Assembly (NCBI RefSeq): GCF_023370115.1
Contig: NZ_CP097160.1
Location: 682,001-746,000, forward strand
DNA: 64,000 bases
Direction: 5' to 3'
Source: Gulosibacter sediminis
Lineage (GTDB): Bacteria; Actinomycetota; Actinomycetes; Actinomycetales; Microbacteriaceae
Each line of letters starts with the position of its first letter. Positions within the stretch are counted from its first letter, which is position 1. Below are positions 16,080 to 24,707 of the stretch, one piece after another. Both the position numbers and the translations under genes were made by a program. Under the pieces are notes generated by a model. That model saw nothing but the letters and a program-made list of their open reading frames with translations, was not told where the DNA came from and did no database searches.

Positions 16080-16955
16080 TCAGGCGTGCACCGCCCACGT
16101 CCAGATCAGCAGCATCGTAACGAGGAAACCGGCGATCTGGTTGAGCCAGAGAAAACGTCGCCAGCCGATCGTGGCCTCTTCGCAGCGTTCGTCCGCCAGA
16201 GATCTGTACTTCCAGATCGTTACGATGTAGGGCAGCACGACGACGGCGGCGAGTGGACCCGGCCACGAGCTGGGCAGCATCACCAGAGCGGCCCCGATGT
16301 AGCCGATCAGCGCGAACCGGGTGGTGCGTCCGGCCCCCAGAAAGGTCGCGACCGAGGCGATGCCGGCGTTGCGATCGGCGATGATGTCCTGCACCGCGCC
16401 GAACGCGTGGGTCGCAATCCCCCACAGGGCGAACGCGAGGATTGTCAGCACAAGCGGAAAGTCCCATGCGGCACCAGCGAGAACAAGGCCGTAGACCGCC
16501 GGCGAGAAAAAGTGCACTGAGCTGGTGACGGAGTCGAGGAATGGCACCTCCTTCCATCGAAACGGCGGGGCCGAGTAGGCGATGACGAAGAACACGCTCA
16601 CGACGAGCACGATGCGACTCGCCGGGTTGCCGATGATCAGCAGCCAGGCGATGAAGGGCGCGCTCGACAGGGTCGCGGCGATCACCGTGGTGCGGTGAAG
16701 ACGCCGATCAAGCACGGCACCCTGCGCGCCTCCCTTGCGTGGGTTGCGCAGGTCGGACTCGTAGTCGAAGACGTCGTTGATGCCGTACATGAGCAGGTTG
16801 TACGGGATCAGGAAGAATACGGCTCCGACCACGAGGGCGATGTCGAGGTGGCGTGTCGTCATCAGGTAGGCGGCAGCGAACGGGAAAGCGGTGTTGATCC
16901 AGCTGATCGGGCGCGATGAGACCAGAATTGCGAGGGGCGTTGCGGAGGTGGTCAT
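16080..16955 (-). CDS. crtEb: Lycopene elongase / C50 carotenoid prenyltransferase CrtEb
   Basis: 291 residues, a UbiA-superfamily integral membrane prenyltransferase that adds C5 units (DMAPP) to both ends of lycopene, giving acyclic C50 flavuxanthin-type products. The first Asp-rich motif is NDVFDYESD (about residues 60-68) and the second is DIIADRNAG (near 190). Eight or nine hydrophobic helices are visible, starting WINTAFPFAAAYL. The ATG overlaps the crtYf stop as ATGA, indicating translational coupling. The length matches characterised CrtEb (about 287). It is the last gene of the operon and is followed by the gene-free gap. Confidence 0.93.
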   Translation of the reverse strand: MTTSATPLAILVSSRPISWINTAFPFAAAYLMTTRHLDIALVVGAVFFLIPYNLLMYGINDVFDYESDLRNPRKGGAQGAVLDRRLHRTTVIAATLSSAPFIAWLLIIGNPASRIVLVVSVFFVIAYSAPPFRWKEVPFLDSVTSSVHFFSPAVYGLVLAGAAWDFPLVLTILAFALWGIATHAFGAVQDIIADRNAGIASVATFLGAGRTTRFALIGYIGAALVMLPSSWPGPLAAVVVLPYIVTIWKYRSLADERCEEATIGWRRFLWLNQIAGFLVTMLLIWTWAVHA

Positions 16956-17260
16956 CGTGTCACCTCTCGGTCGAAGGCGAGAGCACCGACGGCGGGTAGT
17001 CCGAATGCGATCGTGATCGGGTAGGCGAAGTCCTCGATCGGGGCGAGTCCGATGCGCAGACCGCTGACCAGCTGATCGGGGTAGCTGTACAGGTCGGCAG
17101 CGATCATGATGTTGTCGAAGATCGCCGTCAGTACCACCAGCACCACTGCCGTGCACGACGACGCGGCCAGCCGACGCTTCGCCCCTGGTCGCCGCATCGA
17201 GAACCCGACGGCGGTCGCAGCAGCCACAAGGAACGGCAGGCTAATCAGGAAGTACGTCAC
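16952..17260 (-). CDS. crtYf: C50 carotenoid cyclase subunit CrtYf
   Basis: 102 residues, one half of the heterodimeric C50 carotenoid cyclase. Three hydrophobic helices are visible. The conserved PxE motif is in GLAPIEDFAYPITIAF (about residues 72-87). With CrtYe it cyclises the elongated C50 backbone; the ring type (epsilon, gamma or beta) cannot be decided by eye. It overlaps both neighbours by 4 nt (ATGA), as expected for stoichiometric synthesis of a two-subunit enzyme. Confidence 0.9.
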   Translation of the reverse strand: MTYFLISLPFLVAAATAVGFSMRRPGAKRRLAASSCTAVVLVVLTAIFDNIMIAADLYSYPDQLVSGLRIGLAPIEDFAYPITIAFGLPAVGALAFDREVTR

Positions 17261-17598
17261 CGGTCACCACCGTCACTATCAGCCGAGCGCACCCCGATCA
17301 CGCGCTCGAAGACGGCAAACAGCACCAGCGCAAGGTAGGTGAGGAAGGCGAGGAACCCCAGCTCTTCGATGGGCAGGTGCGGCGCGATGTCGACACCCAC
17401 GAACCATGGGCCCGATCCGCGCACGAACACGCCCGTGGCGATGCCCACGATGTCCCAGGCGAGCAGAAACAACCAACCGCCGCCGAGGAGGATGCCGGTG
17501 CGCGCCGGCTGGTGCCACAGCGCTAGCTTCCAGCGGGCGTCGCACGCCATCACACCGGCGGTCGCGGCGACGATGGCTGTCAGGTAGAGGCCAGGCAT
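17257..17598 (-). CDS. crtYe: C50 carotenoid cyclase subunit CrtYe
   Basis: 113 residues with three hydrophobic segments. The signature is IAPHLPIEELGFLAFLTYLALV (PIEE), matching lycopene-cyclase-domain proteins of the CrtYe/LbtA type. The ATG (MPGLYLTAIVAAT) shares one base with the crtI stop (TGATG); longer in-frame extension upstream lies inside crtI and is rejected. The gene order crtI-crtYe-crtYf-crtEb is the same as in the decaprenoxanthin operon of Corynebacterium glutamicum. Confidence 0.9.
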   Translation of the reverse strand: MPGLYLTAIVAATAGVMACDARWKLALWHQPARTGILLGGGWLFLLAWDIVGIATGVFVRGSGPWFVGVDIAPHLPIEELGFLAFLTYLALVLFAVFERVIGVRSADSDGGDR

Positions 17599-19130
17599 CA
17601 GCCAGTTGCCGTCATCTCGGGCATCCGTCCGGGTGATCGATCCCCGCGAATGAGCTTGGTGACGATCTCGGCGGAGATCAGACACATCGGTAACCCGATG
17701 CCCGGTGCCACGTCAGCGCCCACCCTGTAGAGCCCGTCGATTCCACGCACGGTGTTCCGGTCACGGAACATCGCGCTCTGGCGCAGGGTGTGCGCCATGC
17801 CGAGGGCATTCCCGCGCCACGTTCGCAGATCAGTGGCGAAATCCTGGGGCGCGATCGTGCGCCGCACGACGATCCGGTCGGCGAGGTCGGGAATCTGACA
17901 CCACTGCGAGATCTGTTCAATGACGCGGTCTGCGGCGCGCTCGATGCGAGCATCTCCCGTCCCGTCGATTCCGCCACGACCGGACAATGGGTCAGCGGGT
18001 GAGGGAACAAGGACGAAAAGGTTGGTGTGGCCCGGCGGCGCAACGCTGGGGTCAGTGTGCGACGCCGCGCACACGTAGAGCGACGCCGGGTCGGGAAGGT
18101 GGCCGGGTGAGCGGGTGATCGCTTCGAAGTTCGCACGCCAGTCGTCCGTGAACAGCAGCGTGTGATGCGCGAGCTGCTCGATCTCCCCACGCACACCAAG
18201 CAGAAGCAGCAGCGCCCCGGAGCTCGGTGACCGGTCACTTCGTCTGGGTTTGTCGGCCGCACCTTCGAGGAGGTCGTGTTCGAGGTGGTGCAGGTCGGTG
18301 GAGGAGACGACGATCTGCGCTGAATGGTGCGCTCCGTCGGCGAGATCAACGCCGGTGACGGCCCCGTCACGGTGGGCGATGTGCCGCACATCACTGCCTC
18401 GGTGGATGCGCACACCCCGAGTCGTCGCCAGTCGCTCCAGCGCGGAGACGACCGTTCGCATTCCGCCCATCGGGTAGAGGACGCCGTCATCGAGGTCGAG
18501 ATGGCTCATCAGCTGGTACAGCGCGGGAACCTCGTACGGCGAGCCACCTAGGAATACGGCTGGGTATTCCAGCACCTGACGGAGTCGCGGGTCGTGAAAG
18601 CGGTCTTCTACGTGCCCGGCGAGCGTGCGCAGCAGTGCCGGTGCGAGCCGTGGCAGGCTGCGCAGGACCTTCGGATGCCGCAGCACGGCGGCGGTGGAGA
18701 AGCTGTCATAGAGGAAGTGGTCGAGCGCGAGCCGGTAGGCGCTGCCGGCGGATTCGAGGTATGCGTCGAGCCGCGCCCCCGCGCCGGGCTCCATCGATTC
18801 GAACAGCGACGTGGTCTGCGCGCGACCCGTCACGATGTCGAAGGGGTCGTGACCTTCGCTGAACACCCGATACGCCGGGGTGAGGCTCACTAGATCGAGC
18901 TCATCGGCCGCGGTGGTCCCGAGCAGCCGGAAGTAGTGATCGAACACCTCCGGCATCAGGTACCAGCTCGGTCCGGTGTCGAAGCGGAACCCGTCCTGCT
19001 CCCACGTGCCTGCCCGCCCACCTAGTTCGTTGCGCGCTTCGTGCAGGTCGACCTGAAGTCCGCCTTCGGCCAGCAGCGCCGCTGTCGCGAGCCCGGCGAC
19101 ACCGCCGCCGATGACGATCGCCCGGGTCAT
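17598..19130 (-). CDS. crtI: Phytoene desaturase CrtI
   Basis: 510 residues, full length. It opens with the FAD-binding Rossmann motif IGGGVAGLATAALLAEGG and ELGGRAGTWEQDGFRFDTGPSWYLMPE, the typical bacterial CrtI amino terminus. It closes with the conserved YRVGADVAPGIGLPMCLISAE block. It introduces four double bonds into phytoene to give lycopene at the membrane. The start overlaps the crtB stop (ATGA). Confidence 0.95.
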   Translation of the reverse strand: MTRAIVIGGGVAGLATAALLAEGGLQVDLHEARNELGGRAGTWEQDGFRFDTGPSWYLMPEVFDHYFRLLGTTAADELDLVSLTPAYRVFSEGHDPFDIVTGRAQTTSLFESMEPGAGARLDAYLESAGSAYRLALDHFLYDSFSTAAVLRHPKVLRSLPRLAPALLRTLAGHVEDRFHDPRLRQVLEYPAVFLGGSPYEVPALYQLMSHLDLDDGVLYPMGGMRTVVSALERLATTRGVRIHRGSDVRHIAHRDGAVTGVDLADGAHHSAQIVVSSTDLHHLEHDLLEGAADKPRRSDRSPSSGALLLLLGVRGEIEQLAHHTLLFTDDWRANFEAITRSPGHLPDPASLYVCAASHTDPSVAPPGHTNLFVLVPSPADPLSGRGGIDGTGDARIERAADRVIEQISQWCQIPDLADRIVVRRTIAPQDFATDLRTWRGNALGMAHTLRQSAMFRDRNTVRGIDGLYRVGADVAPGIGLPMCLISAEIVTKLIRGDRSPGRMPEMTATG

Positions 19131-19999
19131 GCCGTGACCTCGCGGGCGGTGCCCCCGAACGAGGCGCGCAACGCGATGAGCGCCTTGTGCGAATTGGGCA
19201 CCGAGGCGCGGCCCGATCCTCCTGCTTCCAGGCGTCGTGCAAGTGCCGCGAAGAGCTGATGGGCGGCGACGACAGCACGGCGACAGTCCGGGGGAAGGTC
19301 GGGGATCGCACGGGCGGCGACGTTGAGATCGCGGCGGATGCGATCGAGGGTCGCCGCTCGCACGGTCGCGTCGTCGCCGCCAAGGTAGTCGCGCCCGAGT
19401 ACCTGTCGGTCATGGTCGGCATCGCGCAGGAAGTTGATGTCCTGGAACGCGGCCCCCAGGTGCCGCGCACCTGCCCTGAGATGAGCGGGGGCGGTCAGAG
19501 TGCGGTGTCGTCCGGCGTTCAGGAACACCTGCAGGCACATCAGTCCGACGACCTCAGCAGACCCGTGGACGTACGTTCCGTGCGACGCGGCATCGTGCGT
19601 GGTGACGGTGACGTCGGTGCGCATGGCGTCGAAGAATGGGCGGATCAAACCCTCTTGGATGCCGCATTCTCGCGCGGTGCTCGCGAAAGCGTGGATGATG
19701 AGGTCGGTGCTGAACCCCGATGCAACGGCGGCGATCGTCTCGGACTCGAAGGCATCGACGAGTCGACGCAGCCCGGTCTCGTCCCCTGCTCCGGCGCGAC
19801 CGGGTCCGTCAACGATCTCGTCGGCAATGCGTACCAGAGCGTAGACGGTGCGCACGTGATCACGTACTCGGGGTCCGAGCAGGCGGGTCGCGAGCGTGAA
19901 CGACGTCGAGTAGTGATCGATCACCACCAGCGCAGCGGCACGTGCGACCGCGTCGTAACGCTCGGCATCAGTCGCTTCCCTTCCCAGGGCATCTCTCAT
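19127..19999 (-). CDS. crtB: Phytoene synthase CrtB
   Basis: 290 residues, a squalene/phytoene synthase that condenses two GGPP into 15-cis-phytoene. The Mg2+-binding Asp motifs are DEIVD (about residues 64-68) and NFLRDADHDRQVLGRDYL (near 190-207, the DxxxD of the second site). The HYSTSFTLATRLL segment near residue 29 is also conserved. The ATG overlaps the crtE stop by 4 nt. Confidence 0.95.
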   Translation of the reverse strand: MRDALGREATDAERYDAVARAAALVVIDHYSTSFTLATRLLGPRVRDHVRTVYALVRIADEIVDGPGRAGAGDETGLRRLVDAFESETIAAVASGFSTDLIIHAFASTARECGIQEGLIRPFFDAMRTDVTVTTHDAASHGTYVHGSAEVVGLMCLQVFLNAGRHRTLTAPAHLRAGARHLGAAFQDINFLRDADHDRQVLGRDYLGGDDATVRAATLDRIRRDLNVAARAIPDLPPDCRRAVVAAHQLFAALARRLEAGGSGRASVPNSHKALIALRASFGGTAREVTA

Positions 20000-21027
20000 G
20001 GCATCCGCCCCTCAATCTCGGTCGCGACGTCCTCCACGAGGGCCGCGACGCCGTTCGAGAACGATCGCGCCAGCGAGCGAGCGCTCTCCAGGTGCTGCTC
20101 CACCAGCTCGGCGACCGCATCCCGCGCACCACTGCGCTCGAGTTCCAGCCGCGCATGCCGCAGGGCAACCGGTCCGGTGCGGGCGAGCGCTAACGCTCCC
20201 TCGACCTCCGGCCATGTCGCGGCGCCGCGTGCCAAGGCGACCAGAGGCGTCCGCTTACCCTCGCGTAGGTCGGATCCGGCTTCGCGTCCGGCTTGCGCCG
20301 GAGTACCGAAGGCGCCGATGAGATCGTCGACGAGCTGATACGCGATACCCAGGTGGATGCCGATCCCGGCGAGGTCGCGGTCGTCTTCGCCCCCCGCGCC
20401 GGCCATCAGCGCACCACAGCGCAACGGTGCGGAGAAGGAGTAGGCCGCAGTCTTGTCGGCGGTTATCCGCAGCGCGGCTGCGGAGTCCGTGCCCCCGCGA
20501 GTGGCATCGGCCCATTCGCCGACGGCTGACACCGCGATCGCCTCGTCGAGGTGAGCCACCAGGCGACCTCTGATCGGCGATCGCACATCTGCCGTGAGCA
20601 GGGTGCGCGACGCAGCGTAGAGCAGAAGGTCGCCGACCAGCAGCGCGCCGGCATCGCCCACACGACGGCTCGCGTCCAGGCCCTCTCCCATGCGTCGAGC
20701 GTCCTGGGCAAGGGTGCCGCGCACGTTGAGCACACCGCGGCGACGAGTGTCCTGGTCGATGATGTCGTCGTGCACCACGAACGCGCCGTGCAGGAGCTCG
20801 AACGCCGCGGCGACCTGCCACAGCGCCGCAGGCTCGGGCCGCCGGGTGCTGAACGATCGAAACGAGCGGATGACGAGTTCGGGTCGGAAGCGCTTGCCGC
20901 CGGCGACCGCTGCCCGCATCTGTCCTCGAAGCGTTTCACCCGGTTCACCGGGGAGAGGGAGAGCATCGATGGCGGTCTGCAGCTCCTCTTCGATACGGCT
21001 GCGGTCCGCGTCGGTCAGGCTGCACAT
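19996..21027 (-). CDS. crtE: Geranylgeranyl diphosphate synthase CrtE/IdsA type
   Basis: 343 residues, trans-prenyltransferase. The first Asp-rich motif is VHDDIIDQD (DDxxD, about residues 94-98). The second motif is YQLVDDLIGAFG, in which the last Asp of DDxxD is replaced by Gly, as in many actinobacterial GGPP synthases. GGKRFRPELV (about residue 48) supplies the IPP-binding region. The ATG at 21027 lies 13 nt inside idi. The enzyme provides GGPP for CrtB and, presumably, the signal for the MarR-type regulator. Confidence 0.93.
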   Translation of the reverse strand: MCSLTDADRSRIEEELQTAIDALPLPGEPGETLRGQMRAAVAGGKRFRPELVIRSFRSFSTRRPEPAALWQVAAAFELLHGAFVVHDDIIDQDTRRRGVLNVRGTLAQDARRMGEGLDASRRVGDAGALLVGDLLLYAASRTLLTADVRSPIRGRLVAHLDEAIAVSAVGEWADATRGGTDSAAALRITADKTAAYSFSAPLRCGALMAGAGGEDDRDLAGIGIHLGIAYQLVDDLIGAFGTPAQAGREAGSDLREGKRTPLVALARGAATWPEVEGALALARTGPVALRHARLELERSGARDAVAELVEQHLESARSLARSFSNGVAALVEDVATEIEGRMP

Positions 21028-21545
21028 CGCTGCTCCAACTGGGCGAGCTGCATCACGAACCACGGGCTAAACGCCCACGGCGTCAGTTGCGCGGCGGCGT
21101 GGATGCGACCCGGTTCCGCCCAGACGTGCTCGCATACCTCGTTCGGATCCGGCCTGGGCTCGCCCACGATCGTCGCGCGGAAGACCGGGCAGATCTCGTT
21201 CTCGACGATGCCGCTCGCGTCCAGCGCACGGTAGCGGAAGTCGGGCAGCACCTCCGCGAGATCGTCGAGTTCGACGGACAGCTCCTGCCGCGCACGTCGG
21301 CGGACAGCATCCGCCATCTCTTCACCCGGCGAAGGATGGCCACAGAAGCTGTTTGTCCACACCCCGGGCCAGGCCTGCTTCCCCAGCGCCCGCCGCGTCA
21401 CGAGGAGGCGGCCTGCGGCGTCGATGACGTGGCAGGAGAACGCCAGATGCAGTGGGGTCTGCCGATGATGAACCTCATGCTTGAGCGCGGTCCCGATCGG
21501 CACGCCTGCCTCGTTCAGGAGCACAACCTGCTCACGCGCATCCAT
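21015..21545 (-). CDS. idi: Isopentenyl-diphosphate delta-isomerase, type 1
   Basis: 176 residues, a Nudix-fold metalloenzyme interconverting IPP and DMAPP. The catalytic Cys block is TNSFCGHPSPGE (about residues 65-76). The Nudix-like Glu-rich segment AVRRRARQEL and the family ending WAFSPWFVMQ (Trp) are visible. It is the first gene of the crt operon and ensures DMAPP supply, which CrtEb also consumes. The promoter region contains the CTAG palindrome described separately. Confidence 0.93.
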   Translation of the reverse strand: MDAREQVVLLNEAGVPIGTALKHEVHHRQTPLHLAFSCHVIDAAGRLLVTRRALGKQAWPGVWTNSFCGHPSPGEEMADAVRRRARQELSVELDDLAEVLPDFRYRALDASGIVENEICPVFRATIVGEPRPDPNEVCEHVWAEPGRIHAAAQLTPWAFSPWFVMQLAQLEQRCAA

Positions 21546-21555
21546 TCTGCCCCAA

Positions 21556-21583
21556 TCACTAGATTTTCTAGCAACCTAGCAAA
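21556..21583. promoter_or_regulatory. Putative operator of the crt operon
   Basis: Between divergent idi and the marR gene lies a perfect palindrome CTAGA-TTT-TCTAG (21559-21571). It overlaps two tandem direct repeats, CTAGCAAC and CTAGCAAA (21568-21583). On the idi side the first base of the palindrome is 14 nt upstream of the start codon, so it overlaps the expected promoter and transcription start. The flank TCACTAGAT is repeated in the palindrome upstream of the SDR gene. Confidence 0.65.
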
Positions 21584-21627
21584 GTCGGGTGAATGATGGA
21601 ATAGCCACGCGTGGAGAATGGAGGACT

Positions 21628-22092
21628 ATGCCTGGAATCGAGCCATCTGATCGCGAAGCATTGGTCATGGACGTGCTTCGCGAAGTTCGTGCGTTCGGCG
21701 ATGCACATGACCGCATGAGCAGTGGGATGAAGCACGGGATGGACATGAACATCACCGATGTCGCCACCCTGCGCCTGCTCATCATGCGAAAAGAACAGGG
21801 GCTCGTGGTAACTCCAGCCGACATCGCTCGCCATCTTCGGATCTCCACTGCCTCGACGACGAAGCTTCTTGATCGACTGGTGGAGTCCGGTCACGTGACA
21901 CGCCACCCGCATGCGTCGGATCGTCGTGCTCGCTCGATCGAGTTGACGGATGCCGCTCGCGCGGAGTTCTTCCGGCTTTTCGGTCGGAGGCTCGCCGCCA
22001 TGCGCGCCGTGCTCACGGACTTCACGGATGCCGAGTTGGATGCAGCGCGGCGACTACTGAGCGCGATCGGCGTAGCGATGGACGACGAATGA
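21628..22092 (+). CDS. MarR-family regulator, probable CrtR
   Basis: 154 residues with a winged HTH: VVTPADIARHLRISTASTTKLLDRLVESGHVTRHPHASDRRARSIELT (about residues 55-102), the MarR recognition helix and wing. The ATG at 21628 has GGAGGA 4-5 nt upstream. In C. glutamicum the MarR-type CrtR is divergent from the crt operon and is released from DNA by GGPP and related diphosphates; position and orientation here are the same. Function as CrtR is inferred from context, not from sequence identity. Confidence 0.82.
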   Translation: MPGIEPSDREALVMDVLREVRAFGDAHDRMSSGMKHGMDMNITDVATLRLLIMRKEQGLVVTPADIARHLRISTASTTKLLDRLVESGHVTRHPHASDRRARSIELTDAARAEFFRLFGRRLAAMRAVLTDFTDAELDAARRLLSAIGVAMDDE

Positions 22093-22105: not shown

Positions 22106-22552
22106 TCAGCTCTTCGGTTCGGACGCCGCGCGTTCCCACAATTCGATGCCTCCGGGAATCGTTCGGAAGATCGGGTGCGGTGATGCGGCGTCCGTCAGCC
22201 AGATCGCCGCGTCATCGGGGCTGCGGGCGCGTAGTTTTTCACCGAGATGCCGCCACTCGAAGTCGAGCTGACCGAGCGTCACCGTTAACGCGACGGCCTC
22301 CGATCCTGGTCGCAGGATCCGCTCGCTGTCGAAACGATAGCCGCGCCGGCGAGCATCGGCGGCGACCCCTTCGAGATAGCAGCCGATGGCCGCGAGCGGG
22401 TCGGGTGCGGCACGGAACCGCAGCAGTTGTGGATGGTGGCGGTAGCCTTTCGTGCGCTCGGCGAGCACCGCCTGGGCGAGGAGCGCCTCACGCCAGCAGG
22501 CGACCAGACCGATCCGGTCGAGGTGCCGAGGATGCAACGACCAGATCCTCAT
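22106..22552 (-). CDS. Pyrimidine dimer DNA glycosylase/endonuclease V family protein
   Basis: 148 residues, the usual length. The N-terminus MRIWSLHPRHLDRIGLVACWREALLAQAVL and GYRHHPQLLRFRAAPDP match the Pyr_excise family (T4 endonuclease V-like), which incises DNA at UV-induced cyclobutane dimers. T4 EndoV uses the N-terminal Thr amine; here residue 2 is Arg, as in many cellular homologues, so activity is not assured. It overlaps the upstream MMPL remnant by 4 nt (ATGA). Its location next to a carotenoid operon fits a light-protection role. Confidence 0.75.
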   Translation of the reverse strand: MRIWSLHPRHLDRIGLVACWREALLAQAVLAERTKGYRHHPQLLRFRAAPDPLAAIGCYLEGVAADARRRGYRFDSERILRPGSEAVALTVTLGQLDFEWRHLGEKLRARSPDDAAIWLTDAASPHPIFRTIPGGIELWERAASEPKS

Positions 22553-22971
22553 GCCAACTCCTCGCTTCGCACTTCGTCAGGCCCGATCGGCGGTGCAGAC
22601 TCTCGGCTCAAACGCGACGGCCACCAGATCGCGCGGGTGATGTCATAGCTCAGCGCGGGCACGAGCAGGCTCCTAACGAGGAAGGTGTTAAGCAGCACAC
22701 CGAACGAGACGATGAACGCGATCTGGACGAGGAAGGGGATGGGGATGATCGAGAGTGCGGCGAACGTCGCCGCCAGCACCAGGCCGGCGGATGTGGTGAC
22801 ACCACCGGTCATGCCAAGCCTGCGCACATCCCACTCACGGATGCCGTGCCGATGGGGTTCCTCGCGCACTCTCGTCACGAGGAAGATACTGTAGTCGATC
22901 CTCAGCGCTACCAGGAACACGAATGAGAACAGCGGCACGGCCGGGTCCGCACCGTGGTTCGGCAGCTTCAC
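22549..22971 (-). pseudogene. Truncated MMPL/RND-family transporter (C-terminal remnant)
   Basis: About 140 residues correspond only to the last transmembrane part of MMPL exporters: GADPAVPLFSFVFLVALRIDYSIFLVTRVREE, MTGGVTTSAGLVLAATFAALSIIP and FGVLLNTFLVRSLLVPAL. Intact members have about 700 residues. Upstream bases (22972-23100) hold no continuation, so the N-terminal two thirds are deleted. In C. glutamicum an MMPL protein is encoded inside the crt operon, so this looks like a relic of a crt-linked transporter. The conserved second Asp pair region GIDY is changed to RIDY. Confidence 0.75.
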
Positions 22972-23097: not shown

Positions 23098-23124
23098 TGT
23101 TTCACTAGATACGCTAGTGAAACA
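23098..23124. promoter_or_regulatory. Long palindromic operator upstream of the SDR gene
   Basis: A perfect inverted repeat with 11-nt arms (TGTTTCACTAG and CTAGTGAAACA) around a 5-nt spacer ATACG. It contains the TCACTAGAT string also found in the idi/marR intergenic operator. It is 44 nt before the preferred GTG start of the SDR gene. Confidence 0.7.
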
Positions 23125-23168
23125 CTATGAGGGAACGAACAGCGGTTCCAATCATCGGAGGTCGCCGC

Positions 23169-24707
23169 GTGGAGCAGAATTCAGACCGCACGTCCGCCCC
23201 GACCGGTGCGGAGCCAGAGTTGCGCGCGCGCATTCCGGCCGACGGTCAACCACCTCTTGCGCTCGTCCTCGGCGCCACAGGATACCTCGGCGGTCGACTG
23301 GTGGCCCGGCTGCTGAACGGCGGCTATCGGGTTCGCGTGCTCGTTCGGCGTCCGGAACGACTCGACGCCTTCTCGTGGGCGGGCCGCGTGGACGTTATCG
23401 TCGGGGATGCCGCAGATGAGTCCGTGATGCGAGCGGCTACCGAAGGCGTACAGGTGCTGTACTACCTGATCCATTCGATGACATCCGGATCGCGATTCGA
23501 GCAGACCGATCGACAGCTTGCACATACGACAGCTCGGACGGCTGCCGAAAGCGGCGTCGGTCGTATCGTGTACCTCGGCGGCTTGCATCCGGATGGGGAC
23601 CTCTCCCCGCACCTGCGCTCACGCGTCGAGGTCGGTCATATCCTTCTGGGAAGCGGCGTCCCCACGCTGGCCCTTCAAGCAGGTGTGGTGATCGGATCCG
23701 GCTCCGCCTCGTTCGAGATGGTCAGACACCTCACGGAGGTGCTGCCGTATATGCCCGCGCCACGTTGGGTGCGAAATCACATCCAGCCGATCGCGGTCCG
23801 CGACGTGCTGCACTATCTGCTCGGCGCCGCCCTCGTGCCGCCCGAGGTCAACGCGGCTATTGACATCGGCGGGCCGGACGTTCTGCGGTACGGCCAGATG
23901 ATGAACGCGTATGCCGTTGAGGCAGGTCTGCACCAGCGACACATCGCCGCGCTGCCGGTGCTGACACCGTGGCTAGCCTCGCACTGGGTGAACCTGGTCA
24001 CCCCGATCCCGCGCTCCATCGCACGGCCCCTCGTCGAATCTCTTCAACATGACTGCGTGGTCCGCGACCGCAGCGTGGATGCGATCATCCCCCCGCCTGC
24101 GGGAGGACTCACTCCCTACCGGCGCGCCGTGCAGCTCGCGCTCGGCCGCATCGATGCCGACTCGATCGAGACGAGTTGGCAGGACCAGGCCGTACTCGGC
24201 GCACCCAGCGACCCGCTGCCGAGCGACCCAGACTGGGCGGGGCGTACCGTTTACACCGACGTGCGGACGGCGCGCACCCGAGCGCCAGCCGAGCAGTTGT
24301 GGGCCGTGATCGCTGGGATCGGCGGCAGCAACGGCTGGTACTCCACGCCGCTACTGTGGTCGCTGCGCGGGTGGGCCGATAAGCTGGCCGGTGGCGTGGG
24401 ACTGTCGCGGGGACGACGCAGCCGTTCTGAGGTGGCAGTCGGCGACGTCATCGACTTCTGGCGTGTCGAGGCACTGGAACAGGGAAGAATGCTACGTTTG
24501 CGCGCCGAAATGCGGGTTCCGGGGCTCGCCTGGCTCGAACTGAGGGCAAGTCCCGAAAGCACCGGGTCGCGCTTCGACCAGCGTGCGGTGTTCTTTCCGC
24601 GCGGACTCGCCGGGCGTCTGTACTGGCTCGCCGTCCTGCCCTTTCACGGGCTCATCTTCCGTGGAATGGCTCATCGCTTCACCGCAGCAGCGGAGGCCGC
24701 AGAATGA
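23169..24707 (+). CDS. SDR-family NAD(P)-binding protein fused to a DUF2867-like C-terminal domain
   Basis: About 512 residues. The N-terminal extended-SDR fold has GATGYLGGRLVARLL (NAD(P)-binding TGxxGxxG, about residues 36-50) and GVGRIVYLGG. The C-terminal 180 residues (from about TVYTDVRTARTRAPAEQLWAVIAGIGG) resemble DUF2867/SRPBCC-like domains (W-S-L-R-G-W-A-D-K-L; VGDVIDFWRVE). A GTG at 23169 is chosen because GGAGG lies 7 nt upstream; an ATG at 23127 is also in frame but abuts the operator. The same two-domain protein is often annotated as an uncharacterised oxidoreductase. Its operator suggests co-regulation with the crt genes. Confidence 0.78.
   Translation: MEQNSDRTSAPTGAEPELRARIPADGQPPLALVLGATGYLGGRLVARLLNGGYRVRVLVRRPERLDAFSWAGRVDVIVGDAADESVMRAATEGVQVLYYLIHSMTSGSRFEQTDRQLAHTTARTAAESGVGRIVYLGGLHPDGDLSPHLRSRVEVGHILLGSGVPTLALQAGVVIGSGSASFEMVRHLTEVLPYMPAPRWVRNHIQPIAVRDVLHYLLGAALVPPEVNAAIDIGGPDVLRYGQMMNAYAVEAGLHQRHIAALPVLTPWLASHWVNLVTPIPRSIARPLVESLQHDCVVRDRSVDAIIPPPAGGLTPYRRAVQLALGRIDADSIETSWQDQAVLGAPSDPLPSDPDWAGRTVYTDVRTARTRAPAEQLWAVIAGIGGSNGWYSTPLLWSLRGWADKLAGGVGLSRGRRSRSEVAVGDVIDFWRVEALEQGRMLRLRAEMRVPGLAWLELRASPESTGSRFDQRAVFFPRGLAGRLYWLAVLPFHGLIFRGMAHRFTAAAEAAE

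Follow-up and report, generated by a model that had tools for sequence, protein, structure and literature searches.

A CTAG-N5-CTAG dyad as the candidate operator of a CrtR-like MarR regulator at the C50 carotenoid operon and epi of Gulosibacter sediminis

In Corynebacterium glutamicum, the MarR-family regulator CrtR (cg0725) is encoded divergently from a C50 carotenoid operon, and its operator lies over the crt promoter (the crtE/crtR promoter); epi and mmpL are located nearby, and an epi homologue adjoins crtR. Approximately 72 residues precede the HTH of this protein (PMC5401885). Under the loose definition of a CrtR homologue, an amino-acid identity of at least 25% to C. glutamicum CrtR is sufficient (PMC7432914). 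The homologues from M. luteus and Pseudarthrobacter chlorophenolicus, both 35% identical to C. glutamicum CrtR, are associated with mmpL and bind to their own upstream region in a GGPP-sensitive manner, and their motif has been described as a 15-bp sequence with a central TTAA (PMC7432914). In Paenarthrobacter nicotinovorans, idi is divergent from the regulator, a classical CrtR (53% identity to the C. glutamicum protein) for which EMSA and GGPP release have been shown (PMC7432914). Published CrtR work is centered on TTAA, in a few species only. In this study, the C. glutamicum reference was locus L159, recognized because the published primers and operator matched it exactly. A primer-match search for the CrtR loci of M. 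luteus, P. chlorophenolicus, and P. nicotinovorans found none; the first two are likened here by description, and the third by layout only.

We analyzed a stretch of 64,000 nucleotides from Gulosibacter sediminis (referred to as the window). A (predicted) MarR-family repressor gene at 21628-22092 on the forward strand encoded 154 amino acids from an ATG with GGAGG; translation could alternatively begin at a GTG (21589), which would add 13 residues. The protein matched Pfam MarR_2 (2.1e-12, from residue 39 of 154) and MarR (3.3e-9), both past the cut-off, and was assigned to the MarR family (winged helix-turn-helix). The reverse strand carried idi (isopentenyl-diphosphate isomerase, NUDIX; 21015-21545) at the head of the operon predicted to be regulated, followed by crtE (GGPP synthase, a polyprenyl synthetase by Pfam; 19996-21063), crtB (phytoene synthase; 19127-19999), crtI (phytoene desaturase; 17598-19130), crtYe and crtYf (C50 cyclase subunits; 17257-17685 and 16952-17260, respectively), and crtEb (lycopene elongase; 16080-16964). 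The names of crtB, crtI, and crtEb came from an earlier note on this DNA together with synteny, with homology between crt loci in the case of crtB; crtYe was assigned by synteny and had no Pfam match, and crtYf matched Pfam Lycopene_cyc.

The window regulator showed 40% identity over 108 amino acids to C. glutamicum CrtR, which places it within the loose definition of a homologue; the classical CrtR proteins of the same family mostly showed roughly 43-60%. In a maximum-likelihood tree, the deep branches of which were weak and the rooting arbitrary, CrtR belonged to a clade of 74 proteins (support 99/97) that excluded the window regulator and its closest homologues (ten proteins, referred to as the window clade). 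Furthermore, the N-terminal part of ~72 residues typical of CrtR was missing, and the TTAA essential to the CrtR operator was absent from the intergenic region (21546-21627). Since the loose definition applied, but these three narrower features (clade, N-terminus, and TTAA) did not, the regulator is labeled CrtR-like, not CrtR; it would resemble CrtR in working, but with a different operator. The earlier note had put the intergenic site in the position of the CrtR site of C. glutamicum. This analogy was borne out by the layout, in which marR is divergent from the crt genes with a candidate operator between them, and did not extend to the regulator, which falls outside the CrtR clade, or to the operator, which lacks TTAA. 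By analogy, a divergent autoregulatory arrangement and a ligand-released repressor would be expected, as in C. glutamicum; the association with mmpL (see below) is shared with the M. luteus and P. chlorophenolicus homologues, the central TTAA of which is not found in the window site.

The perfect palindrome CTAGATTTTCTAG, which the earlier note had located between idi and the MarR gene, was confirmed at 21559-21571; it lies upstream of both genes, 13 bp from the idi ATG (21545) and 56 bp from the marR ATG (21628). The element is more aptly described as TNRCTAG-N5-CTAGYNA, a dyad of 19 bp at 21556-21574 (candidate operator 1, TCACTAGATTTTCTAGCAA, no strand assigned), the core CTAG-N5-CTAG of which is the palindrome. 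In the whole 2.75-Mb genome, the core pattern CTAGNNNNNCTAG occurred in 7 copies versus 311 for the reversed control pattern, which argues against a chance palindrome. Searches of the genome with the conserved-flank 19-mer TNRCTAGNNNNNCTAGYNA and the relaxed form TNNCTARNNNNNYTAGNNA each returned exactly two matches, both inside the window (21556-21574 and 23102-23120). The other five CTAGN5CTAG sites in the genome were rejected as regulon members: their spacers were mostly C/G-rich, they had no T/A flanks, and three of them overlapped ORF ends. A terminator or hairpin reading was also discarded, as none was found.

The second site (candidate operator 2, TCACTAGATACGCTAGTGA; 23102-23120, no strand assigned) was embedded in a longer palindrome, GTTTCACTAGATACGCTAGTGAAAC, 1.5 kb from the first and directly preceding the ATG of epi, with 6 bp to the start codon. 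This gene (23127-24707, forward strand) encodes an NAD(P)-binding NmrA-like/DUF2867 protein by Pfam, recurs as a neighbor of crtR, and is the predicted second target. Since CTAR-N5-YTAG was absent upstream of the examinable epi genes of other genomes (several of these loci were end-clipped), the site before epi looks specific to the G. sediminis genome or lineage, apart from the site of the TTAA type found upstream of C. glutamicum epi. The latter, TATATTAACTCAAGAGTTACTA, lies between cg0726 and epi (L159:2636-2657), and 18 of its 22 bases match the crtE/crtR CrtR site. The expression of cg0726 rises 8-10-fold in a crtR deletion of C. glutamicum, for which a single CrtR site was assumed (PMC5401885); this candidate site would explain the rise.

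The nearest homologues of the window regulator (54-66% identity) were found in Microbacterium sp. ASV49, M. dauci, and seven further genomes of the same family. The idi-crtE-B-I-Ye-Yf-Eb operon was divergent from marR in five of these nine genomes (M. dauci, G354, G244, G380, and G404), and when the window was included, the dyad was present between idi and marR in all six crt-linked members of the clade. The motif search in crt upstream regions of relatives, proposed in the earlier note as a check, was thus passed at five other crt loci. Because the window crt proteins resembled those of the remaining window-clade crt loci more closely than those of classical CrtR loci, the regulator and operon probably travel together. 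In the other four genomes (ASV49, G350, G401, and G079), marR was not crt-linked in the DNA examined, and the dyad was located at an MMPL promoter; in G350 and G401, this was the single CTAGN5CTAG of the whole genome (3.2-3.4 Mb). Further dyads in G354, G244, G404, and G380 directly preceded MMPL, MFS (MFS_1), and TspO-family genes, the exceptions being a tRNA-like chance site (G380), a site within an ORF (G354), and, in G354, G079, and G404, sites neighboring other MarR genes. The TspO/MBR-family gene is that of G404 (L132:3526-3538); in other bacteria, TspO proteins are associated with the regulation of carotenoids. In each of the ten homologous genomes or loci examined, the dyad was accompanied by a window-clade regulator.

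Since the dyad is conserved in the crt upstream regions of relatives, it is very probably the operator through which the adjacent MarR protein, a CrtR-like regulator of a separate clade, would control idi-crt and epi by ligand-released repression. A MarR dimer would bind with one subunit per CTAG arm and block RNA polymerase by covering the idi-crt promoter at its -10 region; on the opposite side, the promoter region of marR would probably be covered as well. By analogy with CrtR, the protein would be released by a hydrophobic ligand, for which GGPP or a related isoprenoid diphosphate is the most likely candidate, and accumulating isoprenoids would then induce epi as well as idi and the crt genes. 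The claim of the earlier note that the MarR protein acts on idi-crtE-crtB-crtI-crtYe-crtYf-crtEb is thus supported, at the level of comparison, by the conserved dyad at the crt loci of relatives. The divergent layout makes control of its own gene, also claimed, plausible; this trait is not conserved, however, as the MMPL-linked relatives had no perfect site at marR. The proposed operator itself required modification, to a core of CTAG-N5-CTAG with T/A flanks, a second site 1.5 kb away at epi, and MMPL, MFS, and TspO-family genes as additional targets in relatives.

GGPP is the best guess for the ligand, because published CrtR homologues, including those linked to mmpL, release DNA with GGPP (PMC7432914, PMC5401885). 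On the other hand, exporters dominate the targets of the window clade, and another lipid-like ligand is therefore a live alternative. It is a distinct possibility, albeit on balance a somewhat doubtful one, that the operator and repressor are as described and that the inducer is a membrane lipid, an exported hydrophobic compound, or a light/oxidative signal, the crt genes having joined an export-stress regulon. Rather than carotenoid genes, the commonest targets in the clade were MMPL/MFS exporters and a gene of the TspO family, and the window protein stands outside the C. glutamicum CrtR clade without its long N-terminus; furthermore, carotenogenesis in C. glutamicum AJ1511 is light-inducible under the control of CrtR, and light-inducible Microbacterium isolates have been reported (PMC6739363). 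The GGPP-dependent release of the mmpL-linked homologues from M. luteus and P. chlorophenolicus (PMC7432914) argues against a different inducer. An MMPL exporter is the commonest partner of the regulator clade, and intact MMPL is the main target in relatives; in the window, it survives only as a C-terminal remnant (~120 of ~735 amino acids; 22549-22971, reverse strand), the position of which beside marR mirrors the MMPL-pdg-marR gene order of G350.

Beyond the window clade, 132 loci with CrtR-like MarR genes were inspected, and the spacing of CTAG-Nk-CTAG peaked at k=5 (31 loci; the next value was 11, at k=0), far in excess of dinucleotide shuffles. CTAR-N5-YTAG was located upstream in 45 of the 123 CrtR-like loci outside the window clade, versus less than one expected by shuffling, and the dyad was also found at the idi/crtR and mmpL promoters of a second family in the same order. 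In two loci of this second family (L168:2007-2038 and L169:1380-1411), the stretch between idi and marR contained a pair of overlapping CTAG-N5-CTAG dyads, which suggests tandem operator binding. Many classical CrtR loci of the family had variants of the CTAG-CCAAG-TTAG type; as only part of the classical loci had the perfect dyad, it was rejected as a feature common to them all. In the recognition helix, ISTASTTKLLDRL, the window clade was nearly identical to the family's classical CrtR-like proteins. With slightly less than even confidence, we propose that a broad group of actinobacterial CrtR-like MarR proteins has CTAG-N5-CTAG as its common operator, and that in this group the sensing of isoprenoids or membrane lipids and the control of MMPL/MFS export would be ancestral, crt operons would have been drawn in, and the TTAA site of C. 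glutamicum would be a diverged form. No report of a CTAG-N5-CTAG operator was found in the literature searched.

Binding of the palindrome by another MarR paralogue or regulator, with the adjacent marR controlling something else, is improbable. CTAG-N5-CTAG did occur beside other MarR genes (L126, L024, L030, and L137); the other MarR matches in the G. sediminis genome itself were weak (E ~1e-6 to 1e-5), however, neither of the two sites was near them, and the constant company of the dyad and the window-clade regulator in ten genomes or loci also speaks against this explanation. Since the dyad at L126 (3501-3513; G354) has an MMPL gene on one side and a different MarR gene on the other, the motif may be common to paralogous regulators.

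When 20 sites were aligned and oriented by target gene, the eight columns of the CTAG arms and the T at -3 were invariant, and A was present at +15 in 19 sites. The spacer was A/T-rich and read T-W-A-N followed by CT (TWANCT), resembling the actinobacterial -10 hexamer, and at several MMPL/MFS sites the dyad ended 4 bp before the ATG, like leaderless promoters. We infer from this resemblance that the spacer may serve as a -10 promoter element; the idi-facing spacer of the window (AAAAT) was the sole one of the 20 without T at the presumed -10 position, and a consensus scan for a sigma-70-like promoter found none. That the sequence is a promoter element only (an AT-rich -10 region) or a chance palindrome is highly improbable. 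Its position at a promoter and its hexamer-like spacer would accord with such an element, whereas the symmetric, invariant arms and flanks, the spacing peak of exactly 5, the extreme genomic rarity, and the sites far from crt, yet before MMPL/MFS genes, would not.

The preferred reading, a MarR operator, converts the palindrome into a 19-bp operator code, drawn from 20 aligned sites and open to testing, for the regulation of carotenoid and MMPL/MFS genes in Microbacteriaceae; the second family of the order is probably covered too. Whole regulons are predicted by this code, with exactly two sites in G. sediminis and exactly one in G350 and G401, and it ties the synthesis of C50 carotenoids to export across the membrane and to epi, a conserved but unexplained gene. 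It reveals no new kind of regulation and could aid the design of isoprenoid biosensors.

Tandem 8-nt repeats (CTAGCAAM), also described in the earlier note, were present as CTAGCAAC (21568-21575) and CTAGCAAA (21576-21583, forward strand). The first copy was the right arm of the palindrome itself, leaving the second as the sole extra half-site. This half-site was not conserved in the nearest crt loci, the tandem was absent from the closest crt loci, and it matched 25 times in the window (with at most 1 mismatch) versus 32.5 expected, which is not significant; the tandem was therefore discarded as a separate element. Adjacent to marR, a pyrimidine-dimer DNA glycosylase gene was found at 22106-22552. 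This gene is a recurrent neighbor of crtR/marR in many relatives, and its position indicates a possible link to photoprotection.
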